From: Deuterostichococcus epilithicus
Lineage: Eukaryota; Chlorophyta; Trebouxiophyceae; Prasiolales; Stichococcaceae
Assembly (NCBI GenBank): GCA_033439295.1
Contig: JAVTLE010000007.1
Coordinates: 620,001-684,000, forward strand
Length of the DNA stretch: 64,000 bases
Reading direction: 5' to 3'
Position numbers and translations under genes: made by a program
Shown here: positions 1-64,000 of the stretch, piece by piece
Layout of the letters: every line of letters begins with the position of its first letter
Numbering within the stretch: the stretch's first letter is position 1
Notes under the pieces: generated by a model
Told to the model about the DNA's origin: nothing
Database searches by the model: none
What the model saw: only the letters and a program-made list of their open reading frames with translations

Positions 1-3000
1 GGCAGTCTTGACCTCCGCCAGCACGCCGGTCTTGTTCTGGTTGCGCTTGCGCTTTTTGGCCTTTCCGCCCTGCTTCTTCTCAAAGGTGGGCATCTCTGCG
101 TCGCGGATGTCCATGCCATACAGGCAGGTCAGCACCTGCGCAGGCGGCAGCTTGCGATGACGTCAGAATGAGGACCCGCGAGCGCATGAGCGCGCGCTGA
201 TGTGCATTCCTGCCCTGCGTCCTTGCCTTGCGCTGCCTGTGAGACGCCGGCGTCCCAGCCGTGCCTGCGGCCGCGCCCACCAGCGCTGCTGACAGTCTCA
301 TTCCGGCAGCAAGTGCACAGGCTGGCACGTGAATGCAATGAACCCCTGAGCCGCTACAGCGCGCTCCTGGTGCCTCACCATGATGCGCCGCACACCAGCT
401 GCCACAGGGGTTGGCTGATGAGGGCCAGCCACGCCCCAGCCATGCGCTGCAGCCCCGTGATCGGTAACCCCAAGGGGGTGCGCGGCCAGCCACGCCCCGG
501 CCATGCATTGCAGCCCAGTGGTTGGAAACCCCAGGAGGGGAACGCGCGCCTCGGGGCCGCAGCGGCAGTCGCGCTTCTTGACCAGGTCAGCCACCAGCTG
601 CACCACCTCCAGCATCACGTCCCCCTGCCGGTCGGCCTGTACCACCGCCGCCACCGCAGCGCATGCGGCGGCCGCCACCTGCTTGCTCCTGCGGACCCGC
701 AACCACGTGCGCAGTCAGCCGCGTTCCACAGGCATTGGTATGTTGGGGTGCTCGTCCTGCAGGTCCGCTGCGCCACCGCCGCCACCGCCCCGACGCCGCC
801 TGCTGGCTCCTGCGGGCCAGGAATTGGACACGTCCCGCAGTCAGGCCAGGGTGCTGGACGACACAGGCGTTTAGTATCGTCTCGACCTGGCACAGCCGCC
901 AGCACTCTCGTCTGCACCCTGTGGTTGACGACCTTTGGTTGGCGACGCGAGAACTTCTGATGCATCGGGACACAGGTGGCAGGCCACTGCATGGATGAGT
1001 GAATTATTCATCCAACTGTGGCATGAGGGTTTCTCGCCTGTGGGCCATGGCTGGCACGACGCTCTGCAGCAGGTCGGAGGCACAATTGAAGTCGGGCCGC
1101 GCCGCCAGCAGCCCATGCATGCAGTGCAGCGCCACCTGTCCCAGCGCCACGCCGCCGCCGCTGCCGGATCTGCCGCCGCCAGGTTTGCTGCCGCCGCCGC
1201 GGCTGCCGTCGCCAAAGCCGCGGTCCGCCCTGGCCGCCGCGCCGGTGAGCTGCTTCACATACGCCTGCACTGAATGCATGAACTTGCTTTGGCGATCCAG
1301 GCCTTGTGGTCAACTCGCGAGGTGCAGATGCGCCATGAAGCCGTGGAAAGCAAGCATGCTGTAGATTGGAAGACTGAGATCATTCGAGGCGTGTTCATCC
1401 ATGCCGCATGCAGATGCCCACTTCTTGGTCGCCGGTCCTGCAAAGTCAACATTGCTTAGAGCTGCGCTCTCGTGATCAGCAGTTTTGCAGCACATATGGC
1501 ACAGGAGCTGAAGATTCGACACCAGGCTCGGTCTGCAGATGCGCATGAATCGTTTCCCCATGTAACCGTCAACCCTAAACCCTACACTGCGCACCTGGTA
1601 CATGCGCAGCAGCGTGGCCTCGTAGTCCCGCGTCTTCTTGACGTCCTTGGACACCGGCATGGCCAGCTCCTTCTCCGTCGGCAGCCGGATGCGGTAGCCG
1701 GGCAGCACATCCTTGAACACCGCCAGCAGGGACAGCATCGCCAGCCGCACGATCTGCGCCGGCAAAAGAGCTTATTTCTTCCGAGCAACTTTCGGTCTGT
1801 CTTTCAAGATGACGATCTCGAGGCTGCCGATGGGCGGGAGCTGCGCAGTGCCGGCATGCGCAGAGCGAGAGGTGGACGGGTGAGTGGGCGGCACACTCGA
1901 CAGATCTTTCATGACGCCCTGCTCAGGTCAGCACCAAGGTTCCGCTCTGCGTCGACTCAGGTCAACACCTCTGTGTCGGCGTCGACGGTCAGGGCGAGCA
2001 GTGCGCGCAGGTTTCTGAGGTGCTCCTCCGGCGCGCGCAGCAGCTGGCTGCACGCCACCGCCATCTGCTGCTTCAGCTCCTCCCGCCGCTCCTCCGCATT
2101 CTGGAACGCCTGCGGCCATAGATCTGAAGAAATCACATCTCTGTGTTCACGAGAGTTTTCAGTCATGAACACTTGAGAAGGTTCATTGGATGTGAAGTCT
2201 AGTTTCCGTATAGATTTTTGAATCATTCTATGTTTGCGCTAAATGAACACGTGTTCATGCTTGGCAAGCCCTCCCCCCACATTCTGGAAAGGCCGACGCC
2301 CGCCATCGCGTACGTTTGGGTATGTGCCTGACTGACCTGCCTCGCAGAAGCTCGAGACCCGAATGATCAGGGGGGCAATGCGTGGAGTGTGGTTTCTACT
2401 CGTTCAGCTTGCCCGTTGCTTGCACAGACACAACTTGGAGAGCTCTGGCGCATCGGTCCCACCTGGAGGTCGGACTCTGGATCTGACTCCGCTGCGTCCG
2501 GCAGCTGCTCCCCGGCCGCCTCTCGCTCTGCATCCGGACCTGCAGCCGTGGCAGCTGCGCTGCCGCGCACGAGCTCGGCCGCGGGGTCCGGCTCGTCGGC
2601 GTCAGAAAAGTCCGAAAAGTCCGATGCCTCGCTGCCGTCGGCCTCTGGTGCCTCGGCGACGATGACACCCTCCACACGGGCCACCTGGGGCAATTGCCAG
2701 GGAGGAAAAGTCAGCTCAGGTTCTGCACCATAGAAGACATGGGTAGCCTCAGGGCACAGGCTGCAGGGTTTACGAAGTTGCTGCGGCCCGGCTGGCTCAG
2801 CACGCCGTGCAACTGCAGGCTGTGCCAGCGCTTGGCTTGCTACAAACACAGCAATGGCAGCAGCGTCCGCGCGGCTATGTGTCTGACCCGAGACCACGGA
2901 CGAGGCAGCTGTCTCACCGCAGCCGGGATGCCGGACCGTGCCGCTGTGCGCTCGTACACGAGGCTGCCATCCGGCCCCTTAATTGGCAGCCGCGGCACCG

Positions 3001-3851
3001 CCTCCTTGTCCTGCTCCGGCAGCCTGCGTTGTGGGGTCAACATATGAACCTGCTCGCCGTTCATGCTGTACAACTCACGCAATGCAGATCATTCATTTGA
3101 GCTCGCAAGATGATAGAGTTGCTGACGGCAGGTTTTGGCCCTCACTTGACGCGCAGCCTGCGCTCATAGCTGGTTTCTCCTTCCTCGTCACCAGAGTCCG
3201 CCGCCGCCGGCTTCGGCTTTGGCTGCGGCAACGCCTTTGCCGGCAGCTGGCCCGGCCTGCTTTCGGCAGGGACATGGTCTCAGCAACACAACTCCGACAT
3301 CAGCAGAGAGCACGACTACACTGCTAGCGTGCGCTTTCCCAATTCAAAATTTCTGAAAGCATGTGCCATTGGATGCGCTCATTGTCTGCAGAACGCTTCC
3401 TCAATGCGCCTCAATTCCTCAAGAATTCTGCTCATTGTAAATAACCAGGCGGCCAACATGAAGAACTGCCGCACTTGACGGCCTCGGTGGCATCCAGGGC
3501 GCACAGGAACTCGGCCGCCGGCGCGCCCAGCCGCCGCACGAATTCCAGGTCCTCCTGATTCACCTCCTCGTCGGAGCTCTCCTCCTCGGGGTCCGGCCGG
3601 TGCACCGGTCTCACCTTGTGCGGCTTCTGCTTCTGCTGCTGTGTCTGTGGCATGTCAGGGAGCCGGCGTCGGCATGGGCATCAACAGGACGCCACAGATG
3701 CGCTGCGGAATTGCAGTGGCAAAAGTGCATGTGCAGCAGCGTAGAAAGGCGCCCTCACCTGCGTCTTCTGCCGCTTGTCCTGGCCCCTGCCGCCCTTCAT
3801 GGCGTCCCGGCCTGGAGTAGCCCGGCCGCGCTTTGCAGCCGGCGGCCCCAT
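1..3851 (-). CDS. NOC3: Nucleolar complex protein 3 homolog (partial, 3' end off window)
   Basis: NOC3 works with NOC2 in the nucleolus and nucleoplasm in maturation and export of pre-60S ribosomes, and in yeast also in replication licensing. The first coding exon (3759-3851) begins MGPPAAKRGRATPG and is basic. Exon 2 (3475-3644) carries the acidic EEESSDEEVNQEDLEFVRR stretch. Later exons give YERRLRVK, LPIKGPDGSLVYERTA (about 2950-3000), an acidic Ser/Asp region (about 2470-2690), the helical NAEERREELKQQMAVACSQL (about 2050-2100), and the family signature AMLSLLAVFKDVLPGYRIR followed by LPTEKELAMPVSKDVKK (about 1640-1755). Near the left edge the Lys-rich KGGKAKKRKRNQ continues off the window, so the C-terminal CBF/Mak21-like part is missing. 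The gene is head-to-head with UPF3. Family call is firm. Exons below 1300 are poorly resolved because the introns there hold duplicated exon-like copies. Confidence 0.88.
423..540. repeat. Diverged direct duplication inside NOC3
   Basis: Two copies of about 56 bases, 423-478 and 484-540, both beginning ggccagccacgcccc and both holding catgc(g/a)(c/t)tgcagccc. They lie just 3' (gene sense) of the exon encoding VVQLVADLVKKRDC, so at least one copy is probably intronic. Confidence 0.8.
642..846. repeat. Second diverged duplication inside NOC3 (642-720 and 774-846)
   Basis: The copies share caccgccgccaccg, then cctgct(t/g)gctcctgcgg, and end cgcagtcag(g)cc. In gene sense the first covers an intron acceptor and the start of the exon encoding VAAAACAAVAAVVQADRQG. 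The second lies upstream in the preceding intron and looks like a decayed acceptor-plus-exon copy. Confidence 0.75.
1573..1584. repeat. Short telomere-like repeat in a NOC3 intron
   Basis: ccctaaacccta is almost two units of the plant-type telomere repeat (TTTAGGG on the other strand), flanked by aa and c. It lies between NOC3 exons. It is short enough to be chance or a telo-box-like motif. Confidence 0.6.
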
Positions 3852-4268: not shown

Positions 4269-6454
4269 ATGGGCACCAGGGAGTTCACCAAGGTCGTTGT
4301 GCGCGAGCTGCCGCCGACGCTGCAGGAGGCAGACTGCAGGGCTGCTTTCGATAAGGAATTTGCCGACCGCTACAACTGGTTCAGCTTCTCCACGGGCAAG
4401 CACGGGCAAGTTTACCGTCTCCGCCGCGGCGCGCGGCGCTCGAGCTGCATCGCACCTCCCATGCGCCTTGGCTGAGGAGCAGACAAAACACGCGCGGTGC
4501 AGCTTGCAGAACCGTCAAATACCTCTGTCTTTCTGTGGCAGGCTGAAGACTACCAGGAACTCGACGGCGTATCTAAACTTCAGGAACGCCGCCGACGTGA
4601 TTGCCTTCAAGTCGCGCTTTGACGGCCAGGCATTTGCAGACGACCGCGGCGCGCAGCATGCGTGCTCCGTGGAGTACGCACCCTTCCAGCGCATACCAAA
4701 GGGCCGTGTGAAGCGGGACCCGCGGGAGGGCACCATCGAGAAAGGTGCCACACCTTTCACACGCCTTGCGCGGCAGAATTTCATGAGCCGTGCAACCTCG
4801 ACTGCCTCACCTGGAGCACACGCATGTGCCTGCAGAATTCTGCTGACCTACTCTCACGCCGCTGCACTGCAGATGCAGCATACAAGGCGTTTGTTGAGGA
4901 GCTCGAACAACAGCCTGCGGCTCTGCCGACGGCCGAGCAGCAGCTGGATCAGAAACTGGAGGCAGGCAAGTACATGTGTCCTGTCTGCCGCGGCAGAGCT
5001 GCACTGACATCTCTGCACGTCACATGTCATCAGGTGATTGCCATCCAATCACCATGCAGGTGGTGCGGAAGACAGCGCAAAGCGGGTCGTCACGCCGCTT
5101 ATGCAGTTCCTCCAGGAGAAGTATGCGCCAAAGGAGCGGCCTCCGGCGCGCAGGCCAGCGGCTCGCGGCCGTGGCCTCGCTGGCAGCGCCCTGGCCAGCA
5201 TCTCAGAGGCACCCAGCGGGGCGCCTTCGCGCGGCAGCCAGGTGCCATCTTCCACCCAGCATGCAATTCGTATGTCGGCAGGAAATTCTATCTCGTTCGA
5301 TATACGCTTACTTTTGGCAGGGCTCACTTCTGCGCAGCTGCCTTTTCAGGCCGCGAGTGGCTCCAAGTCTTCTGAAAATCTCTGCGTATCACTGCTGGCA
5401 GCGGTGCGAGACCTACTGGATGCATCGTCTGCAGAGCAAGGCAGAGGCACGAGCAGAGGCCAAGGCAGCCAACAGGGAAGCGCCTGCGCAGCGCGGCGGC
5501 AGTGGCGGCGCGATGGATTCGGGACAGGCGGCCAGGGACGCGGCCCGTCGCGCGCTGGGCAGTCTGCGCCTCGGCAGCGATGCGCAGCCGTCTGCTGATG
5601 GCAGCGGCAGCGGCGCTGGCGCCACCGCACAGCTTCAGGTGAGCAGGCCAGTCCCGCATCACCCTGCAGAGGGCGGCCTTTATAAGGTGTCAGACGGCAA
5701 TGCTGCGGCTTGTCGGAAGTCTTGATGCATATTTCGAAGAATGTGTGTTCGTGCAGCTGTGAATGCTCAGGCCGCACTTCCGATGACGCAGGTCAAGGCC
5801 AAGGCCAGGGAGGCGCCTGCGAGGGAGCCCAAAGTGCGGCCGGGATTTGGCGCCTGGCAGCCTCGCCGCACCCCGCAGCAGGAGGCAGACGATGCCGCTG
5901 CTGCGGCAGCAGGGGCAGCGCAGATCGCGGCAGGCCCGGACGCGGGCTCCAGGCAGCGCGGCATGGCGAAGCAGGAGCCGGCAGCCAGGCGTGAGGCTGC
6001 CGCCGCCGCAGCCAAGCCCGCCTGCGACGCCGCCGCCGCCGCCGCGCAGGCGGCCCCAGCAGCCGCCGCAGGCGGGCCTGCCACCTCTGCTGACGCGCCG
6101 ACGGCGCTGCCGCAGGGCAGGGCTGGCCAGCAGCGCAACAGGCGTGTCAGCAAGCAGAGTCCCCGCGATGCCGCTGCAACGAGTGCCGAGTTGGCAGGCC
6201 AGGCACAGCAGTCAGGCGGGCCAATGCCGTTGGGTGCGGAGCATCCGAGTGCAGACTCAGACGGCCGGCGGCCTAAGGGGCGCGGCAGTGCCAGAGCGCC
6301 CGCGCCGGCGGCCAAATCGGAGCTGCTGGGTGGAGACACGCCATTCAACGACAGGCATGCGGCAGGAGTGGAGCAGCAGGGCGGCGCTGGCGCGGCAAGG
6401 AAGCCGGCCAGGCATCGAGGCAGGCAGAAGAAGCCCAGCGAGCCGCAGACTTGA
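4269..6454 (+). CDS. UPF3: UPF3-type regulator of nonsense-mediated mRNA decay
   Basis: UPF3 bridges the exon junction complex and UPF2 to trigger nonsense-mediated decay. The N-terminal Smg4/UPF3 RNP-like domain is clear: MGTREFTKVVVRELPPTLQE at 4269, then STAYLNFRNAADVIAFKSRF, then VEYAPFQRIPKGR with KRDPREGTIEKD. I read the exons as 4269-4409, 4549-4744, 4873-4965, 5060-5241, 5435-5638 and 5771-6454. The exon 4 start encodes VVTPLMQFLQEKYA, also typical of the family. The intron after 4965 has a GC donor (gcaagt), and splicing there keeps frame (LEAG-GAEDSAK). The C-terminal half is Ala/Arg/Gln-rich and low-complexity. The exon 1/2 junction is least certain, because the only acceptor that keeps frame is the weak gctgaag. 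Product call is firm. Confidence 0.9.
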
Positions 6455-13000: not shown

Positions 13001-16000
13001 TCCGCACGCCGCCCTGGCCGCACCCGCGCCGCCGCCAACGCCGCCCGGCGCAGCCGTTCTTGCGGCTGGCGGCGCCCACCACCGCCGCGGCGGGGCGGGG
13101 GCGGCTCCAGGGCACGGCGCTGCCGCCGAGCCCCCAGCCACGGCCGCAGACGCGGCAATGCAGCGCGGCAACGCAGCCTTCAATGCGGCGCATTACCCTG
13201 CGGCGGAAGCCTCCTACAGCCAGGTGCTCAGTTTTGGTGCACAATCGTCCCTTGAAAATAGTGTAGTTGATAAATGCCAAGAGGGTGAGATTCTGCAGAC
13301 TGTTTGTGGCCCATGATCCAAAGCTCACATCCTCTTCACCAAATCAGACTTTGCTTAGCAGGGCCGAGATTCTCGTGCTTGCCCACAATCCACACCCTGA
13401 GCCTGTGACCGACCCCATCGGACATGACACAGAGAGTTGCCTATCTCCCAATCGCTGTGCAGGCGATTCTGCTGCTGGAGGGCCAGCCGTCATGCTCCGC
13501 GATGCTGGCCAAGCTGTACAGCAATCGCGCGGCGGCGCGCCTCATGCGTGGCTCGCCGCTCGACAGCCTGGCCGACTGCCGCGCGGCGCTGCAGGTAAGC
13601 GCCAGTTCCTTCTCGAGTGCTGTGCTACGTGTTGAGGGCATGAACACTTCCGTCGGCAGTGCAGCACGTGGCTTGCAGGGACACCACTAGAGGCGCCTGC
13701 ACTGGTTGGCTCGGCATCGCCTGCTGCGCTGCCGCCAATCTGGCATGTGACAGCATCTGTCGGGGCGGCTTGGGCACAAGTGCGTCTGACGCACTGCCAT
13801 GCGCTTGTGAACAGGCGAACGCTGGGTACACGCGCGCGGCGGTGCGTGGCGCGACCTGCCACCTGCGGCTGGGCGACTTCAGCGCCGCGGCGGCGATGCT
13901 GCGCGGCTCGCAGCCCGCCGCCGGCGCTGCAAAGGATGCGGCCAAGGAGCTGGCGGACAAGCTGCGAGAGGTCTCGCAGCTGCAGAAGGGCTACGCCCAG
14001 GTGCGGCTTTGTGTCATCGATGCTACTTCAGTAACGTCCTCAAACCTGTTTTAGCATCGTTTCATTCAGGTCGCGTGGTTGCAGCAGGGCTACGTCCAGG
14101 TGCGCCCTTGGATGTTTTCTGTGCTCGAAGCTGTTACAAAATTGCCCCACCCAGGTCTCACCATGGCCTTTCGAGGCTGTTTCAAGCCTTGATCTGACGC
14201 CACATTGCATGTCAACACGGTGACTGCAGGCGGAGGAGCAGATCCTGCACGGCGCCACGGCAGAGGCGCTAAAGGGGGGCTTGGCAGAGCTCGACAAGCT
14301 GCTGCCGTCGCTCGCCGCGGCACCGCCCGCCTTTGCGCTGCGCGCCCACGCGCTGCTGCGCCTCGGCCGGTACGCTTTCGCCTTTTCTTTTGGTGAGCAT
14401 CTGCTGACAAACAACGATGGTGACCCAATCGCACAAAAGTGTCCATGAGCCCTCGAGACAGACTGGAGGCGCCAGCGGCAGCCGTCGTGCAGTGCCGCCA
14501 CTGGCGATGTGCTTCGCAGGTGTTATGCTGGCACTTGTGCTGGCACTCGTGCACAAGCTGACTCGTGACGAGTTGCAGTCCTCGGGCCCCTGCCAGCACG
14601 AGGAGGTGCTCTGGCGGTGGCCCGGCAGCAGGTCCCGCACCAGACATCGTCCTGGACTGATGTGCCGGTCGCACTGCACCTTGTGACACTGCATTCCGTG
14701 CGACAAATAGGCGGGAGGAGGCGCTAGCGGCGGCCACCTGGCAGCAGGGGCCTGCCGCGGCGCTGGCGCGTACAGACGCCTGGCTGTGGTGGACCCAGGC
14801 GCAGGCCGCGCTGCTGGCTGGCAACGTTCCGCAGGTGAGCAATCGTGGGACAGAGTCGAGGTCCACCTTGCAGGCACACTGCGAGTTACATCGCTATCAG
14901 TTGCGGGATCTGTTGGCGGCAGTTTGCTGGCCTCAGGACGTGATGGGCAGTGTGGTGGCAGGTTCCCAGATGACAAGCTTGATTCTGCGAGGCGAGCACG
15001 AATTCAGGTTATTTGCAGCGGATGCCAATCTTGCGCACTGGTTGGCAGACCATGGGCTGAGGTCTGGTAGTCGTCTCTGTGCCAGGCGGCGGCGGCGCTG
15101 CAATCGCCCGCGGCGCAGCGGCACCTGGCGACATCAGCCCAGCCGGCCGCCGGGCCCGATGCCCTCACGCTGCGGCTGCCCAGTGAGGCGGAGGCTGCCG
15201 CGGCGCTGGAGGACGCGCGCTCGATTGCACGCCTCAAGGACCAGGGAAACGCGTGCGCCTTCTCAAAGTGTCCTCCCTCGCTTGAACTGATCCCAAGCCC
15301 CCACTGATGCGCACCTTCACAGCCTACAGTCTGCCGACCAGTGGCTTTTCAAGGTGCCTTGCTGGACAAGGGCCCCGCCAGACAAGCATGCCATCCACCT
15401 TGGCCTCTTTGTGGTCGCGAAAGGCGGACAGGGGTCAGGGCTCCTGCTGCGGCCACCCTCAGCGACTGCCCAGCGACTCATCGTGCCCAGCGACTCATCG
15501 TGCCCTGCCGTCTGCACCGTCCCGACCGCCACACCGGAACGTGAGGCACCGCACTTTGTGTGCGCCGATGCAGCGCCATCAAGGCGGGCGACCACGCCGC
15601 GGCGGTGCGGCACTACACGGCGGCGCTTGGCGCGCCGCGGGCGCCGCTGCCGGGCGGCGCGGCGGTGCTGCACGCCAACCGCGGAGCGGCGCACCAGGCC
15701 GCCGGGGCGTTGGCGGAGGCCATCGCCGACTGCGGCCGCGCCCGCGCGCTTGACCCCTCGTACGCCAAGGTGAACGTGTCGCGGTTTTCGTGCACTACTG
15801 TTCAGGTAGAACAGTGACACGAGCACAGGGCAACACCGCGGCCTGAACAGCCGCGTTTCCGGCGAAATTGTGTGGGGAGACTGGGCTTGAACTTGTTGAG
15901 TTGGTGTGCCTCGCCTGACTTGGTGCAACCATGCGCCCTGGGTCATGGCTGGACCGGTCCTTCGAGCAGGTTCTCTGCACCAAGCTGATGGCAGCACAGG

Positions 16001-18102
16001 CGGCTGATCCCTGACAAAATGCATTGCCCAGGCGCTGTCGCGGCTCGCGGCGCTGTGGCTGGAGGTGGGCCGCCCCGCGGCCGCCGTCGAGGCGCTGGAG
16101 GCCCTGGAGGGATTGTCCGCTGGGAAGTTGTCCGGTGCCGAGCGCTCCCAGCTGGCGTCGCGGCTGCGGGCGGCGCGCGGCGCGGCCGCCGCGCCGCCGC
16201 GGCCAGACCACTACCGGCTGCTGGGCCTGCAGCGCGGCGCGACCGCGGAAGACGTGCGCACCTTTGGTTGCTTCCCCGCTTCCCCGCTTCCCTTGTCAGC
16301 TTTATGTGCGAAGAGTCTCCCGTGGCAGCCCGCGCAGCCGCGAACAGGCCACTACCGGCCGCTGGGCCTGCAGCGCCGCGCGGCCGCGGGCGATGCGTGC
16401 AACTTGCTGCTTCTTGTCTCCTTCTGTTTCGTGTCTGCCAGGCTCAATGCCAGGTCGTGCATCGTTCGCGGTCAATGTTGCACGGCTTGATTGTGGCTCT
16501 TGTTGTCTGTCGTGCTGTAAGCATTGCCAGACACTTTGCAGAGCGTCTGTGAACACTCTGTGCCTCGTGCCATGTGCCTTCACCGCAAGGCCTGGGCATG
16601 CAGAAAAACCTGGGACATCGACAGATCTACATTGTTTCCAGGACAGATACATTCTACGAGCGCAGGTGCGCAAGGCGTACAAGAAGTTCGCGCTGCGCAT
16701 GCACCCAGACAAGGCGGCCGCTGCCTGCCGCTTCAGCACCAGCCTGCTGACGGGCGCCCGACTCGTCGGCGACGCCCCCGTCATCGAGGTGAGGCGCTGC
16801 TTGGTGCTGTCATGCGGTTTCGACGTCATCAAGCATGCTCACAAGTGTGCATAGCCGGAGTTTCGTGCACACCCAGCCGGCCTGCTCGTTCGCCAACCAC
16901 GGCTGCAAACGTGAAACCTCCGCACAACTGCGCAGCCTCTCGACATCTTCCTTTCTTCCCTGTCGACTTGCTCAATATCGACAGTGACCAACGCTGTCCA
17001 GCTCCCTCTTAACTTGCGGCACAGGCGGCGGTGCTGGAGCAGGCGAACAAGCTGTTTGCGCTCGTCAGCGAGGCCAACTCGGTGTTGTCTGACCCCGTGC
17101 GCCGGCGCGAGGTGTGTGTGGTGACCAGATTACCCGCCTCCAAACGATGTTGTGACCACCTTTAATCTTAACGGACACTCCCACCGTCACGACTAGGCTG
17201 TGACTACATGCGCAGCCATTGACCGCATGCTCTGCAACTGCTGATCTCCCCTGCCGCAAGCCCAGCCCCAAGCAGCAAACTGCAGCGGCCTCGCTGGACC
17301 CATACTCTGCACACATCCGCATGCAATGGGTGCCGAGCTAGCAGGCTCCCCACACTCATGTGGCGCCTTGCAGCGTGTCCCTCTGCAGAGCTGCCATGGA
17401 CGAGGCGATTCAGTGGGATATGGCAGTTGCATATGCTGGCAATCACGCCATGCTGCTGTCGTACGCAGTATGATGCAGTGTACGATGTGCGGGCCAGCGG
17501 CGGGACTGGGCGACGGGCCGGCGGCTTCCCACACAGCGCCTACAGCCGGTCCACCAATGCCCACCAGTGCGCTACTGACCCTCCTCACCTCTGTGATCCA
17601 AAACCATCACTCGCGCATTTACCTGTTGGGAGCCTATCGTGCGGGGCCGCATTTAGCCCCGAAGCCTAGCCTTGCAACCTGCGATTCGGCCAGAAGCCAC
17701 ATGGATTTGTAATGCCCGTACTTGTTACCCGTCCCTACACATGGTTGCGGCAATCGCGAGCGGCAACCACAGCACAGACTTGCATGCAGCAAGGGAATGA
17801 TCTGCAGGCTCTGCTTGCCGTTACTCGACCAGGGACCAATGCTCTTCCCTGAACTTCTAGCCCTAAGGCTCAGCACCCGCTGCCCCCCATGCAGGCAGTA
17901 TGGTGCGTACGGCGGCAGCAGCGCCTACTACCGCCGCCCCGCCGCCGGCACTAGTGGCTATGGCAGCTTCTACGGAGGCGGCGGCAGCAGCCGCTCGCGG
18001 CAGCCGCCGCCGCCGCCGCAGTACACCTGGGGCTCCGACGAGGAAGATGCGGAGTACTACGGCGGCGCCTACTCTGGCGGCAGCGCATGGGACTACTACT
18101 GA
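10051..18102 (+). CDS. TPR and J-domain co-chaperone, TPR15/TPR16-like, with FG-type N-terminus
   Basis: The architecture matches plant TPR15/TPR16-type Hsp70/Hsp90 co-chaperones. The N-terminal third is low-complexity Ala/Pro/Gln with scattered FVFG, FRFG, FLFSS and PFSFA motifs (about 10450-12850). TPR units follow: AMQRGNAAFNAAHYPAAEAS at about 13160, LYSNRAAARLMRGSPLDSL at about 13520, and ALHANRGAAHQ-type units at 15560-15770. The J domain is split: PDHYRLLGLQRGATAEDV at about 16203, then VRKAYKKFALRMHPDKAAA near 16670 with the HPD motif intact, then NKLFALVSEANSVLSDPVRR at about 17050. The C-terminus is Gly/Tyr-rich and ends DYY at 18102. The start is unsure: 10051 opens a plausible basic exon (KLRSPGRRSLARRFTG), while 10339 gives MADNDSFAAFCS. 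A frame change near 10440 needs a missed tiny intron or an indel, and two Ns fall in the repeat region. Confidence 0.8.
13976..14110. repeat. Duplicated exon end plus donor in the TPR/J gene
   Basis: 13976-14010 and 14077-14110 share gcag-agggctacg(c/t)ccaggtgcg. The first copy is the end of the exon encoding LQKGYAQ with its GT donor. The second lies 98 bases downstream in the intron and keeps the cag-gtgcgc donor-like site. Confidence 0.8.
15460..15504. repeat. 17-base tandem repeat in a TPR/J gene intron
   Basis: cagcgactcatcgtgcc occurs twice in tandem (15471-15487, 15488-15504), preceded by a partial copy from 15460. It is intronic between two TPR exons. Confidence 0.8.
16186..16404. 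repeat. Partial duplication of the J-domain exon
   Basis: The exon end around 16201-16262 (cca-ctaccggctgctgggcctgcagcgc) is repeated about 142 bases downstream at 16343-16404 with some changes (ctaccggccgctgggcctgcagcgccgcg). The second copy lies in the intron that splits the J domain. Confidence 0.85.
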
Positions 18103-43965: not shown

Positions 43966-44001
<36 letters not shown>

Positions 44002-46171
44002 TGAGGCCATCGTCGCCGCGGTCCGCTACAGGGCTGCCGCGGCTCTTGCCGCTGCGCTCAGCGGTGGCGGTGGCGTTGCCACTGCTGGCCGCGAGGCTTG
44101 CGCTGCCGACCCCAGCGGCAGCGCTGCTGGCGGCACCAGGGGTGGCAGCCATGACGCGCACGCTGCACAGCGGGAAGATGGCCTGCATACCGGCCGCAGT
44201 CCTGGACGACACCTCCCAATACAGCTGGGCCTGCAGCAGCACTAGGGTTCATCGGGCATGTGCCGGTTTGTGGACTCTTTTCAAATTGTTCAAAGATCAC
44301 TTGAGCCTTCAAGGGTCGACTTTAACCTCGTGCAGGCTGCACTGCAATAGCATGCCCAGCGCCTGTATGGCTGCACAGCAGTGTGATGCTGCAGATCCGA
44401 TGCAGCCCGGCCTCGCTACTCGCCAGCATGCAGCAGGAGCGGACACAGACACGTTATTCACATCGGTTGCGCCACACCTTGCGGATCTCGAAGACGCAGG
44501 CTGACGCCTTGCCGCCGGCAGTGAGCAGCGCCCTGGAGGCGAACAGCAGGCGCGCAGGCGACAGCGCATTGTGCGCGCCGTGACTGCTAGCGGCCAGGCC
44601 GGCAGAGGTGATGGCCACGGTCAGGTATGGCACCAGCGTGTCCAACTGCACGACGAAAATTTGTGGGGTTTATGTCAAGGGATGTCCCAGTGCCAACCGG
44701 ATTTGAGACATGTCAGGTACGGCACCAGCTTGTGCAGCTGCACGGTAGATGTCTTGGGTTCGTCGTCAGAGAATGTGCCTTTCCACAGTCGACTCAAGTC
44801 CCGAAACATGTCAGCCACAGCACCAGTGCTAGCAACTGCAAAGTGAGATGCCAATGGCGCCTCAGCGAACATGTCTTTGTAGCCGACATGCACATGCGTC
44901 AATGCACGCAGCCTCAGACCACGCACTGGGCTTGACCCACAAGGGACAGGCTACATTGCACAACAAGCGCGAGCTCGCCTGGCTGATGAGCTTGCGCAGC
45001 TTGGCACACGCCTGGGCGGCCGACATCGCGGCGCCGCCGCCGCCGCGCTCGCCGCGGGCCGCCGCCATCTTCTGCGTCTGCACCTGGCCCTCGAACGCCT
45101 CGATCTGGCGCAGCGCCTGGAGAGCCACGTCCACGGCGCCTTGCAGCACCTGGACGGGACACATGATGGTGTGATGTATTGCCACCCTGATCCATTCACA
45201 CCCGAGAAGTCCCTGCATAGGAAAGAAACCTGGCGCAGCGCCTGCAGCGCGAAGGCCACCCCGCCTTGCGGCACCTGGGCATGCGTGGCAGAGCATGCCA
45301 TGGGGTTTGCTAATCCAGATGTGAACAATTCTCTTCAGATTGATCTGCACATCGCCTGCGGCGCGATGTCGTCGATTGTGCCTTGCAGCACCTTGCCGGT
45401 CAGAGAGCCCACACGACAACGGTATTCTACTTCGAATCGTTCCGAGCCCAGTGACCCAGGGCGGACCTGGAGTGCTGGAGAAGTCAGTGCGTAGTGTGTC
45501 ACGCAGGGTGGGCGGGAAAGCAAGACAATATCACCGTGCTGCCGGTCATGGCAGACTTCACGCAGGCGTCAATCGGCAGGAGGAGGACCTTGGTCTTCAG
45601 TTCCAGCTCGTCCTTCAGGCCCTGGATCTGCACTCCGTCCAGGTAGCAGATACAATGTCTCGTTGGGGTATCATGCTCGTGTCCGCAGAACATTTGGTAA
45701 TGGCACTTCCAGCCGAAGTGCACGATCAGCTCATCAGCACTGGCATTGCTCCACCGCTTCCACAGGCATGCGCAGCAGACCCGCTGCTTGCCACTCGTTT
45801 TGTTGCAGCAGCAACCGTTTCCAGCTTGGAGTTGAGTCAGACACTAGGGAATCGCAAATTTGTGTGCCGCCACATCAATGTCAGACCGCACAACCTCTGT
45901 GTTGCCGAAGAACTGGCGGCCCAGCGCCTCGCTGATGCCGTGCAGGCTAGTTCGAGCGAGCGCGTCCACGGCTTTTTTGCTCACCTGATGCACAGCCACA
46001 GTGCACCAGTGTGTCTGACGAGGGTAGGCATACCGCCATGCATACAATCGGTGCGGTCTTCACCAACACGAGTAATAACCGCGGGCACTTGGGCACTGTC
46101 ATCCTGGACGGTGGACGTACCGACTTGCCGACGGTAGCGGCTGCAAGGAGAACGTAAGGACTGAGATCCAT
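42652..46171 (-). CDS. Unrecognised multi-exon protein with Gly- and Asp-rich linkers
   Basis: I do not recognise the family. The ATG at 46171 gives MDLSPYVLLAAATVGKS, followed by a gtacgt donor, then VSKKAVDALARTSLHGISEA and GRQFFGNTEVVRSDIDVAAH (about 45860-45985). Later exons include IQGLKDELELKTKVLLLPID (about 45575-45640), RFEVEYRCRVGSLTGK, ALQALRQIEAFEGQVQTQKM (about 45065-45140), LVPYLTVAITSAGLAASSHG (about 44570-44645), YWEVSSRTAAGMQAIFPLCS with a poly-Gly run (about 43966-44225), DPFSPVLAIHMAADEAATP (about 43560-43610), and an acidic stretch leading to LALGRLDYVLRLATLECREN (about 43070-43350). It ends NLTKLGFDGAK at 42652. The hydrophobic N-terminus could be a membrane or organelle signal. 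Introns hold repeated exon-like copies that make several boundaries ambiguous. Coding status is likely; function is unknown. Confidence 0.6.
43966..44001. repeat. (ccg)n trinucleotide run coding poly-Gly
   Basis: About 12 ccg units. On the minus strand in the coding frame it gives a run of about 12 glycines. Confidence 0.9.
44621..44746. repeat. Duplicated segment in the unknown acidic protein gene
   Basis: 44621-44654 and 44713-44746 share tcaggta(t/c)ggcaccagc(g/t)tgt. In gene sense they read VQLDTLVPYLT and VQLHKLVPYLT, so either could be exon and both end at an acctga/cctgac junction. Confidence 0.8.
45105..45396. repeat. Triplicated exon-like segment in the unknown acidic protein gene
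   Basis: Copies at 45105-45155, 45231-45282 and 45345-45396. In gene sense they read VLQGAVDVALQALRQIEAF, VPQGGVAFALQALRQVSF and VLQGTIDDIAPQAM. The first two match closely (tggcgcagcgcctg then ccttgc(a/g)gcacctgg). The first is the best exon candidate. Confidence 0.8.
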
Positions 46172-49102: not shown

Positions 49103-51618
49103 ATGGCAATTGGACAGGGCACTCAGCCTCGGGCGCAAGGCTGCCCCGTGGGCCATCACCGTCAAGCTGAAGGCGCTGAGCCTGCGCAGCGGCCCGCGGC
49201 GCAGTGTCCCGTGAAACACGAGCAGGGCAGCACGGCTGCCTGCCCCGCGCACAGTGGCGGCGCCGCACCTGACGACAGCGGTGCGGCGGCACCGCAGCCG
49301 CAGCAGCAGCAGGAAGAGGTGCAGCCTGATGCGGAGGCCAAGCCCATGAGGTGCCCGCTGGGCTTCGGCAGCGACAACACCGCCAAACTGGACCCGCTGA
49401 ACTGCGTGCTGTGCCGCAGCCTGTACTTCGAGGCCGCTCAGACCGTGTGCGGCCACCGCTTTTGCGCCCCCTGCATCAACCCCTTCCGCGACTGCCCGCT
49501 GTGCGGCGCCGACTGCAAGCCGCTGTCCGAGGATGCGGAGATGCAAGGTGACTGATGCCAAAGGCGTCAACTATTGAACGTGCGAGCGCTGCACTCGTGC
49601 ACAGGATTCTGTGGGCCTCCTCAAAAAGCCTTCTTAGTGCCGACGTTGCAAGTAATAGTGCCGTTTTGTGCGCAGCCACGGTGGACAAGTACATCGATGT
49701 GCACAGTCGCGACCACAAGCTGACCACCGGCGGCAAGGCTATGCCACAGGCAGAGGTGACGCACCCTTGCACACTTGACCGTCGGTGCACTGCTGCATCA
49801 CGCTTCTGAGAAAGAAATACTGTCCATCCCAGGCTCCATGTACCCTGACCGTCTGAGACACAGTGTTTCAGCAGTGCAAGCGCAGCGACACTCTCAATTT
49901 CCTCATAAGGTTCTGAGACTTGGTGTCCTGGCGGTCTCAGGAGGATGTGGCGCAGCACCCTGCGGCCGCGCGGGCGGCCTTCTTTCTGCAGATTGGTCTG
50001 CGCTCCTTTGCGGGCGGCAATGCGGCCGCGGCGCTGGCGCGGCTGCGCGACTGCGAGGCGGCACTTTTGGACCAGCAGGCGGCGGAGCCCGGCGGCGAGG
50101 CGGTTGCCGTGCAGCTGGGCGCGGTGTGCGGCTCGCAGGTGCGGCAAACCTGCTTGCTTGTTGTGCGGGTGTTTCGTGCGCTTTTCGTTCGGGCTGCAAA
50201 ACACTGCGGCTCGCAGGTGGGGCCCGCAGGTGCGCAAAGCACTTTTGCTCTGTGGCTGGCGGTCGTATGCCCTAATGGGGTCTGAGGAGAGCATCTGTGA
50301 GGAGCCCGGGGGTGGACATGCACCGTTCATTGTGTGGGTGCAGAAGCCAAAACCCTTAGGTTCTGCAAGCTCGTGTTGCATTGCACTCCAAGCGAGTGCG
50401 AGTGCTCACACGCGCGCTCTGACTGCAGGGCGATGCGTGCCGCAAGCTGCAGCGGCCCACGGAGGCCGCCGCCCGGTACGAGCAAGCAGTGGACCACCTT
50501 GAGTCGTGCGCCGCACCCAGCGCCGAGGTGCGCAGGTGTCGAAGGGCGCAGACAATCAGACATCAGCTTTGCAAGTGGTACTGTCGGCGGAGAGATAGCA
50601 GGCAACCAACAGGGCAACCCCCTTTTTCATGCACCAGCAAGTTGTGCCGGTGCTGTGGATGTAGGCTTGCAAACATACAGGCTTTCAGCAGACACGGCTC
50701 TAGCAGCAAATCCACCGCCACATGTGGCTTTCGTCAGTCCCGTGCTGTGCTGTGCAAGCAAGCGGCAATGGCGCTGGGCTCCGTGACTTCTGGTAGCCAA
50801 GTTGTTCTTCACCATCTGGTTCCTCACAATCTATTGCACAGCAGCTTCACAGCTGTTGGCTCATTTGGGCGACTTTTAATTTGGGCGATGGCAAAATCCA
50901 TGCGGCACCCCACCATGTAGTAGAATCCCAAGCTGCAAACAATATGCAAAAACAATATGCACCTTCTCACATACTTCTTCCGACGTGTTGTTGCAGGTGC
51001 TGCACGCGCTGACGGTGTCGCTCAACAAGCTGGGCGACCTGCGCTACATGCAAGGTGACCTGCCGGCGGCGCAGCAGCAGTACTCTGCAGCACTGGACAT
51101 CCGGCGGGCCGCCTGTGCCAGCGAAGGTGGCGGCACCGCTGCGCAGCAGGTGCGATTTTGCAGTGAGGACGGCTCACAGGCTTTCCTTGAGCACTGCAGT
51201 TCCTCACTAGCATCAGGCAGCCAGCGCGAGTCGTGCAGCTCACCCAGCGCACCCGCATTGTGCACATGCAGCATCAGGACGGGCTGCGGCATGCGCTTGC
51301 GGCGTGGCCATACTCGCAGGGCAGCGCAAGGCAGATGGCAGAGCAACATCCCAGAAACAGGCAACCCAAGCTGATGCCTGTTTCTTTCGATGCCCACTCC
51401 TGCAGCTGGACCTGGCAGCCTCGCTGGTCAAGGTGGCGGACGTCAGTGGCGCCCTGGGCGACGCCGAGACGCTGGAGAGGTTGGGCGCAGAGGCGCAGAA
51501 ACTGGTGACCGACATGGATGAGGCAGCAGCGCTCGACAAGGCGGGCGCTGCCAAGCTGGCAGGCCTGCAGGCATACTTTGCGGCGCAGCAGGAAGCTTCG
51601 AGAGTCTCATCTTCGTAG
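49103..51618 (+). CDS. NCA1: NCA1-like catalase chaperone (RING plus TPR)
   Basis: In Arabidopsis NCA1 binds catalase and is needed for its folding and activity. The ATG at 49103 starts MAIGQGTQPRAQGCPVGHHR, followed by a Cys/His- and Gln-rich linker. The zinc-binding RING-like part is MRCPLGFGSDNTAKLDPLNC, CVLCRSLYFEAAQTVCGHRF, CAPCINPFRDCPLCGADCKP, with all eight ligands in place. A TPR-like helical part follows: VDKYIDVHSRDHKLTTGGKA (about 49680-49740), FFLQIGLRSFAGGNAAAALA (about 49980-50045), AVQLGAVCGSQ, GDACRKLQRPTEAAARYEQA (about 50430-50490), VLHALTVSLNKLGDLRYMQG (about 50997-51055), and LDLAASLVKVADVSGALGD (about 51405-51465). Stop is at 51618. The spacing and order match NCA1 rather than generic RING proteins. 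Confidence 0.9.
50121..50245. repeat. Duplicated exon end plus donor in NCA1
   Basis: gcggctcgcaggtgcggcaaa at 50129-50148 is echoed at 50206-50222 (gcggctcgcaggtgggg) and partly at 50224-50241 (ccgcaggtgcgcaaagc). The first is the true exon end (AVCGSQ) and donor. Confidence 0.8.
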
Positions 51619-56007: not shown

Positions 56008-59000
56008 TCAGCCTGCGAGGGGGCGGCCCCGGCCCCAGGCGCCCAGGCCGGACAGAGCAGCCCGGGCGGCGGCCTCCGCCGCTGAGCCGCCGGCGCCAGT
56101 GCCGCCTGAGCCCACCGCCGCCGCCTCGCCGCTGGCCGGCCGCTTGGCCGGCTCGCTGATGACCTTGTCTTGTGCCGAGATGCCGTTGGGCTTCGCCGCA
56201 ACAGGCTCCTCAGCGGCCGACTTCCTGGTGGCGGCGCCGTTTGCGGCGATGCCGTTCTCCTGCGCGGCAAATCCAGACGTCCTGCTGCCGCCAGGTGCCC
56301 TGGCCGCACCGCGCTCGCGGCGGCCCGGCCGCGACTTGCGCTGCGGCAGGCTGCTGCTGGCGCCGCCGCTGGCAGCGCTGCCACCAGGTGCCGCCCCAGA
56401 GTCCAGTTCCTCCAGGCGCGCTGACAGCACCGACAGCGCATCGCCTGTGGTAGTCAAACGTGGGTGCGCACTCAGATCAGCAGTTCCACTGGCTGACACA
56501 GGCGACTTCCGTGCACTGTTTGATCACTTTCCACATCAGGGCTCGCCATGCTTTGAGGCCCACGACGCTTCTGCTAGGAGCTTAGAGAGTGAATGGGGAC
56601 GGGTCGTGGCTTACCGCCGCCCGGCGCGGCGCCGCCGCCCAGCGGCCCGCCTGCCGCCTCCTGCAGCATTGCCGCGATCTCCTCCGGCCGGCGGCGGCGC
56701 GGCGCCGGCTCCTCGGCGGTCGCCGCCGCAACGGCCGTCGCCAGCTGCGCCGCCTGCTCCGCGAGGCCCTTAATGGCGTCCGTGGCGGCAGCTGCCTCCT
56801 CCGGCGGCAGCGCCTCCAGCAGCGCGGCGTGCTTGGGCGGCCCATCGGCGGCGGCCCGGGCCGAGGCTGCCGCCTCGTCCACGGCGGCCAGGGCCTCCTG
56901 CAGGCGCGGCACGAAGCACCGTCGGCAACAGCGCAAGTCTGGCCACGGAGGCACCGTCCCATCCGCACCCACAGAAGCAGCAGTTCTGCTGGCAGTCTTA
57001 GCGTCGCTTGCCGCTGATGGAAGATGCAAGGGCATGCCGCTCACCTTGATGGTGCGCTGCAGGGATGCCTGCAGCTTGGTGTTGGCCGCCTCCTTGTCGG
57101 CCAACCCCAGGCGCGTGAGGTCTTGCCCCTGTCTGCGCACCCGCTGCAGCCGCTCTGCGTTGCTGCGCACCCGCTCGCCAAGCTGTGCGGCCGCATCACA
57201 ATGACTTGAATCAGTTCAGCGGGCCAGCCCGGAACAGTGCAGGTGTTGAGGCCGGGTTTGGTCGCTGCGGCGCGCGCCGGCGGGCCTCCTAATCAGGCCT
57301 CCTGATCAGCAGGCGGCCCCCGGTGCCAGCCGCTGACACCCGTCAGCAAGGCACATGGCAGCAATTGTTTTGGCAGCATCTGCGGCACTGTACATGCAGC
57401 AGATCAGGCGCGGGAGTCCGTGCACGCACGTGCCAAGCAAGCCAGGCGGCGAGCAGTGGGCACGAGGCGCAGCAACTGACAGAGGACTCACCTCCGCAAG
57501 GTACGCCACGTCAGCCTCGAGAGCCGCCCGCGCGGCCGAGAGATAGTCTGACGCTGCAGACGGCTCCGGCGCCACGCTGCTGGACACTGGGCCCCCTGTG
57601 GCGCCAGGCCGCAACAGAGCGGCCAGCTCACGCGCAGCGCCCAGCTGCACCTCGTGCAGTGCGGTGTCGGGCGCCGATGCCGCGGCGCTGCCGCTTGCTG
57701 CCTGTGAAGCCGCGCGGGAAAAGAGTCAGAAAAGGGCCGACAGCATGCAACATTGCCTGATCGAGTGTGCGACGTCGGTGCACTGGTGCACAAAAGTGTC
57801 GACTGTGCCCGTATCAAGCGCGGCGCGATGCATGGCAAAGGGCCGACGGGCGCGGGAGGATGGTGTGGAATGCGGGAACATGCATCGTCGCGTCCGTAAA
57901 CCCGGCAACGGCAGGGGCAGCCGCGACGGAGGGCGCCAGGGGCCGTATACCTGGTTCAGGCAGGCGGAGTACTGGCTGCGAGCGGAGGCGCGCCGCGCGG
58001 CGACCTGCGCCAGCTGCGCCCGCACGGCATCCAGCTGCGCCTGCAGCGCCGCGGCCTGGGACTCCAGCTTCTGCGCCTGTGGCGTAGCAGGCTCGGAACG
58101 TGAGAGAAGCGTGCCGACGACTGTACAGCCGTCAGTCCCCAGCTGCGCCTGCGCCCACCGCTGACTGGGGCCTCCAGCTCAGCCGCCTGACGGAGTTTGA
58201 GGGGCGTCAGTCGAGAAGTGGGCCCTACCGGCGGAGGCGGCCAGGCCTCCGGCACCGTGCCTGTTTGGTGACAGTGCCAGAGCTTTGGGACCCTGTTCCG
58301 TGCGACCTGAAGCAGCCCCGCTCTCGACGCATGCTGCTGCAGTCAGCCGCTGCTTCGATACGGCAACGGGCAGGCAATGTGGCAGAGCAGGGTGAAGAGG
58401 TGACACTTCGTCGGAGACAAGCCCAGCCAGGTGGCATGCAGGTGCTGCCAGACAGAAAGAGAAAACCTCAGACCCTGAACCCTTGCCTGCGCCGCCAGGG
58501 TGGCGTCCTCGGACTTGAAGGCGTCGGCTGCCGCTGCCCGCTGTGCGCCGCGCGAGTGCGCGTTGGCCGCCATCAGCTGCGACGTCTGCAGCAAGCACGA
58601 AAGGGCACCGAGTCGTGAATCGCTGTCAGTGTGCAACCGGAGGACCTGCCTGCTATGACCAGCCTTGCGCGCATGTTGATGCGCCGCGACCGGCTGCCAG
58701 CCGCCGCGGAAACCTGCCAAGCTACATGTGGGTTCGTGCAGGTCGAGGTTCGCAGTCTGACTGTCTAAACACCTACATTTCTGACCCGCCAGTTAGGGCC
58801 GTGCATCCACAGCAACGCACCCGCAGACGCTGCTCGGTAAGGGCGACAAGGGCGTCAGCTCCGGCCGCGTGCTGCGCCGCCGCCGGGGACGGCGCCAAGC
58901 CCCCAGCGCCCGCTAGCCGCTGCTCCGCCAGCCGCAACAGCCGCAGGCGGGCGGCGGCAGCGTCTTTCGGCGTCATGGCCGCCGCGGCAGCCGCCCGCGC

Positions 59001-60452
59001 AGCCTCGGCCGCTCGATCTAGCTCCGCCGGCGAGGGCGTCGCGGCCGACCCGCCTCCGGGCTTGGCCCCCGCCGCCACCGCTGGCGCCGCCTTCAGCGCC
59101 GACAGCACGGCGCCGACGGCCTGCTGCGCCNCAGCGAGTAGCTCGGTCGGCGTCGCTGAGCCGTCGGCACCCAGCAGCGCCGACCACTGGGCGANGNAGN
59201 CNGCGACGCCGGCGGCGTGCCTGGCGTCCAGCGCTGGCGCCGAGAAGGCCGCTAGCAGCGGGCGCAGGCCCGCCGCCGCCGTATCCCCCGCCGCGGCGTC
59301 GCCGGCTGCCTCGCCCATGCACCCTTGCACCGACAGCTCGAGCGCCGCGGTGTCGCGCAGCACCTGGAGGGGGACGTATTGAGGGATGGAACCCCGCCTG
59401 TGACAGAACTATTCCGCACATACATGAGACGTACACATCCATGGAGCGCTGCAAGTGAGGTGCTGTCAGCAGACGAGAGGTTCTTCAAGGGGCAGATCAC
59501 TTGAGCTACATCCTCTAGTAGTAGCTTGCTGAAAGCCCACTGAGGCACAGGCCGCGATGCGCACCTGCTCAAAGCTGATGGGGCGGCCGCTGCTGCCAGC
59601 ATAAAACACGCCTCGGCCTGCCTTGGAGTCATTGAGCTGCGGGATGCATTGACGAACATCGATTCTGATTCCTTCAAATTTCGCGAAAGGGAATGTCTCG
59701 GCTGCAGCAACACCAGTCATGAGCATGCACCCTTTCGGTGCATGGCCGGCTGCGCACAGCGTGCGCTTTAGAGTTACCGCGGTGCACACCTGTCGCGCCC
59801 ACTCCTGCCATAACCGCAGGCGGTCGCCACCGCGGACCGCCTGCGCGGTGGCCTCCAGCAGCTTCGCCGCCTCCGCCTGCGCTAGCAGCGGCGCTCCCCT
59901 GACGGTGGCGGCATTGCCGGCGCCAGAGTGCGAGCCGTTGCGCGGCCTGCCGAGCCGTCCCGCAGGCTGGAAGCCGTCGTCCTGCTGCTGCTCCGTGTGA
60001 CCGTTCTGCTCTGCTAGGCTGGCGGCGCTGTCTGCCATGGATGGGAGTGCCTGCACGCCCAGCGCAGGTGCAGTACAGTACGTGAATCCACTTAGCGGGT
60101 TCGAGCCGAGGATGAAGCTTGGCAGTCTCATCGTACTACTAGCATCTGGAACAATATGATACAAGTGAAGGGCGGGTGCGCGGCGCAGTAAAGTTGACTG
60201 CCATCGCCCGTCAGGCGTTGATCAGTCGAGTTCGAACCGTATTTCGGGTAGTGTGCAAGAAGAAACTCTCACCTGAAGATCATTCTGGCTGCTGGGCTGC
60301 GCGATCGGGTCCGCTGGCGGCTCCTGAGCCTTTGCCTTCGCCTTTGCGCGTCTCTTCTTGGAGGCAGCAGTAGTCCCCGCGTCTTTCCCAGCGCCCTTCG
60401 CTCCGGCGTCCGAGCCGTGCAGCAGGTTGAAGGCATTCGACAGGCTTGCCAT
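56008..60452 (-). CDS. Unrecognised Ala-rich coiled-coil protein
   Basis: No family named with confidence. Exon 1 (60273-60452) gives MASLSNAFNLLHGSDAGAKG then a Lys/Ala-rich basic tract (KKRRAKAKAKAQ). Exon 2 includes AEAAKLLEATAQAVRGGDRL and LWQEWARQ (about 59795-59835). A short exon NDSKAGRGVFYAGSSGRPIS (about 59570-59640) leads to VLRDTAALELSVQGCMGEAA and a long Ala-rich helical region (58830-59365). Further coil exons are LMAANAHSRGAQRAAAADAF, AQKLESQAAALQAQLDAVRA (about 58010-58080), ADVAYLAE (about 57490-57515), NAERLQRVRRQGQDLTRLGL (about 57090-57165) and IAAMLQEAAGGPLGGGAAPG. The last exon starts DALSVLSARLEELDSG and ends at 56008. Heptad-like Ala/Leu/Gln spacing suggests a long coiled-coil scaffold. 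Several Ns fall at 59131-59202. Exon order is convincing; function is unknown. Confidence 0.62.
58031..58189. repeat. Duplicated segment in the Ala-rich coiled-coil gene
   Basis: 58031-58079 and 58139-58189 share ccagctgcgcctgc, then ggcctgggactccagct against ggggcctccagct, then gcctg. The first codes for the AQKLESQAAALQAQLD coil; the second lies 108 bases away in the adjacent intron. Confidence 0.75.
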
Positions 60453-60882
60453 GGCCGCCGCTGACACTCAGCTGTGGTGGCTGCCGCTGATGCGGCCGGC
60501 GAACGCTGTAATTGCGGACGGCAAAGTAAAGGCGGACGGCCAACGAGCGCCAACCTCCCTGTGCACCGGGAAGAAAGACTGAAAGAAAGGTATGAAGGAT
60601 GCTCAAACTGTATCAGCAGTTCATCACCGGTACAGCCGGACTCTCGACCCAACGTGCTTCTGAGTTATGAGCTTATGACACTTGGCGCCTCGACAGCTCA
60701 CGTGGTACATCTTCACATTCAGCTTGCAATGGCCAGTCTCCTTGTCAGTCGTCACTGTCGTTGGCATTGAATCTGCGTTCAGATTCTGGCCAGGCGCTTC
60801 GGAAGCTGGAACGGAAAGAGCGGATTGGGACATTGTCCGTGCATGCATCTGACCGGACTATCGTGCAGTCCAGCAGAGCTCG
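60453..60882. promoter_or_regulatory. Divergent promoter region, coiled-coil protein / GNAT
   Basis: 430 bases between divergent starts. No clear promoter element. Confidence 0.55.
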
Positions 60883-62134: not shown

Positions 62135-62691
62135 CAGACCTGTGTCCGGAAGTCTCGCCTGCGGGTGTTGCTTCCTGGCATGCTGACACCTTGCAGGCGT
62201 GCGCCTGGCCATCACTACATCGAGAGCGCCTCATCAGGCCCGATCAAAGCGCTTATGCGCATGTGTGGTATTCAGAAGCTGACATTTGGATTGCGGCGAT
62301 GATATCACCTACTTCTGGTGCTGCTGCAGGACTTTCAGGACTTGCGGGGCATGTCCTTCCAGCAAAAAGGCAGCATTGGCAAAGCGCTGATGGCCAGCCT
62401 GTGAGCGGGCTGCTGCCAATTTTGGCCATGCTGTTGTGCAGCCAACGTCTTGTGCGAATTGTGAGTGAGCTAGGAGCGTTCAGATTTGTTGCTGAAAAGA
62501 TTTCGGAGTCTGATTGGTGCCTCTCGTTTGCAACTGCCTGTCAGAGAACCTTGCCAAATCACAAGTGCCGGAGCTTCGCCGATGGCGCAGCTGAATGGAA
62601 TTGCGCTGCATCGACTGCCACTCGAGTGCATGAACGATCACGGTGCCAATGCAGTCGGCAGCAGCGCCGAGGGCTATGTCATGGTAATTGA
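62135..62691. other. Convergent intergenic gap, GNAT / bPH2-domain protein
   Basis: About 560 bases of facing 3' regions. Nothing else seen. Confidence 0.6.
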
Positions 62692-63773: not shown

Positions 63774-64000
63774 AGGAGAAGCAGGAGTGTGCGTCGAAGT
63801 AGGTGCTTGGCTTGAATGCGGTGGCGTGTTGCATGGTGCAGAGCGCGGGCGTCATGCAGAGGCAGAGTGACAAGCAACTGAATCGTGTGCATGGCAATGT
63901 AGCATAGACAGATATTCGCTCAAGTTTGCATGCAGGAACCTTCCCCAGCCCCGCCGTGCACTGATCTGAGGATTCAGCCTGAAGAGTGGTACCTTGTGCC
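63774..64000. other. Right edge: possible upstream exon of the bPH2 gene
   Basis: On the minus strand 63935-64000 is open to a gaag-gttcct donor-like site and would join GDAGEESDEDF in frame 0 from one frame. I cannot tell exon from leader here. Confidence 0.3.

Follow-up and report, generated by a model that had tools for sequence, protein, structure and literature searches.

Many longer introns bear decayed copies of the neighbouring exon's end, probably left by old tandem duplications across splice junctions

The nearest described counterpart of the pattern reported here is the RdRp gene of potato, in which a tandem genomic duplication runs across an intron-exon boundary; the outcome there is reported to have been a new intron together with an inserted exon (PMC4974935). 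In the model of intron gain associated with Rogers and Hellsten, as related in PMC3443670 and PMC4974935, an intron is instead a single duplication unit, born from the tandem duplication of an AGGT-containing stretch of exon. Degenerate matches to exons within introns have been reported with Exonize, whose classes rest on the coverage of whole query exons (PMC12343006). Finally, introners make up dispersed families, and most reports of them come from fast-evolving lineages, green algae among them (PMC9860276).

The introns described below share something with each of these systems. As in the potato gene, the duplication runs across the boundary between intron and exon and takes with it acceptor signals and the head of the exon, but the inner copy mostly appears to have been absorbed into an existing intron. 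As in the AGGT model, the tandem duplications are short, lie within genes and often keep AG and GT, although the length of the intron differs from the repeat offset and it is existing introns that are lengthened. Like the Exonize classes, they place exon-derived sequence, including degenerate copies, in introns of the same gene; they differ in that only part of an exon, its end, is copied, that the copies favour a particular spacing, and that they are tied to splice junctions and intron length. Like introners, they add intron sequence, but the one repeat with which the genome was searched (36760-36950, from an HMG-box gene) matched its own place only. Exon-end copies are ordinary in kind and unusual in density; in the reading preferred below they are a dense version of a known type of event, as the duplication in potato likewise spans the junction (PMC4974935) and degenerate exon matches in introns are known from Exonize (PMC12343006). 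A literature search, with most subscription journals outside its coverage, found the pattern described nowhere beyond that single potato case.

The window is the whole stretch of 64 kb that was analysed (C6:620001-684000), in a genome of 46.79 Mb in 21 contigs; its coordinates are used throughout, negative values and values above 64000 lying in the flanks. Our main set consisted of the window with 100 kb on each side (264 kb), and 50 kb from another contig, C1, served as an independent set, the two together covering 314 kb. GC content is 61-62% in the stretches read. The light-harvesting family PF00504 matches the genome 39 times at the level of exons, which marks it as that of a photosynthetic eukaryote, and these matches, taken with the GC content and the splice consensus, make a green alga probable. 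Genes were predicted from the DNA sequence alone, by a self-trained finder. In the 264 kb it returned 62 genes with 614 exons and 552 introns (median intron 207 bases) and a clear splice consensus (donors CAG/GTGCG, acceptors GCAG/G), and all six predicted proteins used in a Pfam search matched known families. Moreover, a PCID2-like protein aligns without interruption to the solved PCID2 chain 8r7j_B across the junction 28449/28450, as does an AFG2/CDC48-like protein to the CDC48 chain 9m3v_A across the junction at 83883; this unbroken homology lends good support to both exon boundaries and marks the intron copies beside them as extra. The counts by offset band and the pair counts after them omit the first 6 kb of the 264 kb, occupied by a predicted gene of 19 exons (-99985 to -93622) that repeat one another at offsets of ~72 and 218-396 bases; its introns stay, scored as copy-less, in the total of 661 (552 from the 264 kb and 109 from the second contig). 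A cluster of single ambiguous bases (N) is found at 59188-59211.

Local direct repeats in this DNA are far above chance, and the pattern is thereby confirmed as real. With low complexity masked, the 264 kb yielded 86 ungapped self-matches scoring at least 18 at offsets of 20-400 bases, against none in a far control (offsets 5000-5380), and 64 gapped repeats scoring at least 22 at the same offsets, against two and none in two far controls. The unmasked window alone holds 25 repeats scoring at least 22 at offsets of 60-150, against a mean of 2.0 over seven far offsets; 11 of the 25 survive masking too. The second contig gave 13 repeats against three and none in the far controls. Between adjacent 200-base blocks there are 18 direct and no inverted repeats scoring at least 22. 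Chance or low complexity as the source of the repeats is rejected on the far-offset, inverted and masked controls. A spaced-motif search with AGGT did not discriminate (936 matches versus 804 with the reversed pattern). The offsets peak at approximately 95-125 bases: exon-intron pairs scoring at least 16 number 10, 29 and 14 in the bands 65-95, 95-125 and 125-155 (far mean 1.0 per band), and intron-intron pairs 1, 2 and 0 (far mean 0).

Repeats of other kinds were also encountered. Near-identical short tandem duplications at offsets of 42-48 lie in introns at 68798-68909 and C1:1011848; both appear young, which most repeats at longer offsets do not. A predicted gene at 67196-67716, armadillo-like by eye, combines tandemly repeated similar exons with intron copies. 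On contig C1 a 13-base match occurs thrice (C1:1702373, 1709298 and 1716223) at a spacing of exactly 6925 bases, which suggests a long tandem array.

A sequence-only reading of the window had listed 12 places at which an exon stretch is repeated nearby. All 15 pair comparisons at these places yield an alignment and, gapped and unmasked, 13 of them, representing 11 of the 12 places, score at least 22. The place that falls short is 50129/50206 (50127-50223, forward strand), whose score of 16.8 is matched by chance, matches of at least 16 averaging 9.1 at far offsets in the unmasked window. Eight of the 12 remain at 22 or above with masking; 642/774, 16201/16343 and 38585/38706 drop below it because they are compositionally simple. 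By the self-trained models, what is repeated at most of these places is an exon end on one side and sequence of the neighbouring intron on the other. On the forward strand lie an exon/intron pair at 16181-16274 and 16321-16413 (offset 140, lost when masked) and a donor-side array of three diverged copies at 24090-24332 (offsets 84 and ~66). On the reverse strand are found: a donor-side pair at 423-550, in which an intron copy beginning at 423 accompanies exon 484-550 (offset 61); a pair at 28397-28579 in the PCID2-like gene, where an exon head ends at 28449 and intron 28450-28862 holds its copy at 28522-28579 (offset 125); a pair at 36720-36995 in the HMG-box gene, with exon 36467-36826 and a copy in intron 36827-37312 (offset 97-102); an exon/intron pair at 38590-38796 (offset 122), whose score of 23.4 falls to 10.8 when masked; and exon 57951-58076 with a copy in intron 58077-58480 (58031-58224, offset 108). 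Two reverse-strand arrays lie close together, one at 44620-44921, where an exon head ends at 44645 and intron 44646-44954 holds copies of it at 44712 and 44810 (offsets 92 and 98), and one at 45105-45405, where exon 44955-45149 is copied at 45230 (offset 125) and again at 45347 (offset 114), this further step, 45231/45345, being weak at 16.9. Further arrays within single introns occur, for example, at 83203-83882 and C1:1025121-1025670. The gene models make exceptions of 13976/14077 on the forward strand, which consists of two predicted exon ends (13969-14024 and 14068-14125, offset 99) with a donor after each, and of 642/774 on the reverse strand, in which exon and intron are mixed (624-741 and 756-877). 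Three places in the window lie beyond that list: 25777/25919 (25777-25981, forward strand), with an exon head at 25922 and its upstream copy in intron 25383-25921 (offset 142); 32792/32891 (32792-32930, reverse strand), a donor-side pair at the junction 32891/32892 (offset 99); and 39133/39235 (39133-39344, reverse strand), an acceptor-side pair at the junction 39173/39174 (offset 102).

Most of the matches are anchored at splice junctions. Among the 43 pairs of the 264 kb that score at least 22 at offsets of 60-200, 38 join exon to noncoding sequence, two are exon-exon, one is mixed, one is intron-intron and one intergenic; this last, at 157659-157839 (offset 123), is the sole intergenic pair above that score at these offsets. 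The nine pairs of the second contig at the same offsets comprise five exon/noncoding, one exon-exon and three intron-intron pairs, with none mixed or intergenic, and each of the three intron-intron pairs lies within 150 bases of an exon-intron match. A junction falls in or near the match in 36 of 45 pairs at offsets of 60-260 (nine are without one). In 22 of them the junction is an acceptor and the copy lies upstream, in 11 it is a donor and the copy lies downstream, and three are of other kinds. In 33 of these 36 the copy is on the intron side of the junction, exon end and adjoining intron standing in direct order. The dinucleotides are frequently retained, as had been claimed from the letters alone: AG in 27 of 33 copies and GT in 12 of 18 (score at least 18).

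Tandem duplication predicts that the intron flanks of the two copies should be alike, and they are alike beyond random introns (P<0.05) in 12 of 30 pairs (11 of 19 acceptor-side, 1 of 11 donor-side), six of the 36 pairs having been dropped for overlapping copies or for spacers of <15 or >220 bases. This likeness supports duplication across the junction, and the negative result in the remaining 18, including 10 of the 11 donor-side pairs, counts against it. The flank-negative pairs include well-kept exon copies at 144281 (27/28 bases) and 58031 (39/44), and in the pair at -53096 the exon columns are fully identical (43/43) versus 29/34 for the adjoining intron columns, which also counts against the explanation we prefer. 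In the 19 acceptor pairs of this comparison the spacer from copy to exon is never <40 bases, which is what the need to accommodate a functional branch point and acceptor would predict; among 31 pairs that include donors and some arrays it is <40 in five, against 37% simulated at fitting ages. As the earlier reading proposed, the copies behave like exon ends that were duplicated in tandem together with their splice sites.

A good part of the longer introns bear such worn copies of the neighbouring exon's end. A copy (score at least 18) is present in 57 of the 661 introns, a count that includes six doubtful assignments in which the offset equals or exceeds the intron length. The copy-bearing introns have a median length of 333 bases versus 204 for the others (P 5e-12), an excess of about one repeat offset, and when the largest repeat offset is subtracted their median becomes 217, which does not differ significantly from the rest (P 0.47). 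Copies occur in 22 of the 55 introns of at least 400 bases and in none of the 144 introns of 150-200 bases; the earlier suggestion that they lengthen introns is supported.

We consider it probable that old tandem duplications across existing splice junctions lengthened these introns and that the inner copy decays as intron. A tandem duplication of roughly 65-155 bases would span a pre-existing junction, and the outer splice site, namely the downstream acceptor or the upstream donor, would stay in use and leave the protein unchanged. The inner exon copy and the duplicate splice site would then turn into intron, which would grow by one duplication length, and the inner copy, free of coding constraint, would decay neutrally. 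Pairs that contain an exon would stay recognisable because selection holds the exon copy, and wholly noncoding duplications would fade about twice as fast. Repeated events might build up the arrays of two to four copies seen in some introns. What the data show directly is the repeats and where they lie, the excess in intron length, decay of a noncoding kind and the lack of intron birth; the choice of splice site, the neutrality and the great age of most events are inferred from these.

Most of these events are probably old. The score distribution is best approached by a simulated neutral decay of ~0.25-0.30 substitutions/site. Pairs scoring at least 45 make up 3 of 31 when two overlapping arrays are dropped (5 of 33 with those arrays), against a simulated share of a third to half at 0.15 and of at least two thirds at 0.10 and below. 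The notion of an ongoing process is not supported, and the scarcity of young duplications, which counts against the preferred explanation, requires that the process has slowed or that the assembly merged recent ones. Young neutral duplications placed at random are rejected by simulation. To judge from simulated detection rates, wholly noncoding repeats should abound if ages were uniform, and an old cohort accounts in simulation for much of their shortage. At a score of at least 22 their count is without conflict with such cohorts. At 16 and above, a single free-standing intron-intron or intergenic repeat is seen where the four models that best approach the scores expect 7.7-18.9, and adding the intron-intron repeats inside exon arrays brings the count to seven, which two of the four models allow. 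This shortage counts against the preferred explanation, as does the exon share among detected duplications, which is below that simulated at the best-fitting ages. A cohort of a single old age comes close on scores and does not fully explain the free-standing noncoding shortage.

That shortage bears on whether junctions were targeted or simply preserve the evidence; targeting is possible. Under this idea, to which we give a minor share of the probability, the splice junctions or exon borders of transcribed genes were preferred for ~110-base tandem duplication beyond their better preservation. Rotation of the annotation yields 24.5 exon/noncoding pairs in place of the 38 of 43 found (P 0.0005), and expects 7.7 intron-intron and 6.2 intergenic pairs where one of each occurs; free-standing noncoding repeats scoring at least 16 are likewise under the simulated expectation, and at scores of at least 14 the 95-125 offset peak is strong for exon-intron pairs (33) and weak for intron-intron pairs (6). 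However, the second contig offers no such excess, with five exon/noncoding pairs among nine versus 4.6 expected, and the anchoring of one copy in an exon by itself raises the chance of detection, strongly at old ages. At scores of at least 22 the simulated old cohorts are not in conflict with the counts. Moreover, the eleven repeats with an offset of <60 are, as a class, without exon preference. A past genome-wide episode of such junction-targeted duplication, which built a large share of the long introns stepwise and seeded thousands of decoy splice sites, is a speculative possibility of similar standing, with the thousands being extrapolated from the 57 copy-bearing introns in 314 kb.

Less probable, and pertaining to a minority of cases, is the use of the inner copy as a short exon, whereby a duplication would yield a small exon and a new intron in the manner of the potato RdRp gene (PMC4974935). 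Hints of this come from the gene models, in which the copy at 45230-45241 is called as an exon of 12 bases, another 12-base exon adjoins intron 138618-138731, and a galactosyltransferase gene has both copies kept in frame; however, the models may have forced exon calls onto coding-like copies.

We think it improbable that selection maintains the copies as functional exons, whether alternative, mutually exclusive or poison exons. A few have an open frame by eye, such as one in intron 83203-83882, and the splice-site scores of some approach real ones: the 10th percentile of real sites is exceeded by 20 of 33 copies on the acceptor side and 9 of 18 on the donor side, compared with 19% of AGs and 21% of GTs overall. 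The decoy splice sites proposed earlier are to this extent partly supported, as sites that score like real ones and might be used. Against selection, most of the copies shown cover no more than part of an exon, and the mismatches spread over all codon positions (0.169, 0.172 and 0.224 at exon positions one to three, 42 pairs), so that no constraint as protein is seen on the copy in the intron. Single changes comprise 124 synonymous, 234 nonsynonymous and 5 stop (random expectation 103, 251 and 9), so that 239 of 363 alter or stop a codon versus 260 expected at random. Coding constraint on the copies is rejected by these codon-position mismatches and change types. Further, AG is kept no better than its neighbours (26/31 versus 49/56 for adjoining intron bases and 100/123 for adjoining exon bases, score at least 20).

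The birth of introns as single AGGT duplication units, for which the frequent retention of AG or GT might speak, is very improbable here: when intron length must equal the repeat offset and donor and acceptor flanks must be alike, 2 of 552 introns qualify at scores of at least 14 (0.1 expected; a third is borderline at 13), both adjoining doubtful predicted exons of 5 and 12 bases within arrays, the best of the 109 introns of the second contig scores 8 (0/109), and the acceptor-side copies shown are preceded mostly by intron-like sequence with gcag and not by the upstream exon, such that the intron gain suggested from sequence alone comes down to 2 of 661 introns, both doubtful, and is rejected.

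The preferred reading, in which duplications across existing junctions lengthened introns, touches on a process that is thinly documented as far as the literature search showed, namely the growth of introns without mobile elements. In such introns the exon stands as a preserved reference beside its own decayed duplicate, and small duplications that are otherwise invisible become countable, measurable and roughly datable. If the pattern were true genome-wide, duplications that span splice junctions would be a direct determinant of how long introns are, and the copies would furnish a natural set of fading decoys on which to study the spliceosome's choice between near-identical sites.
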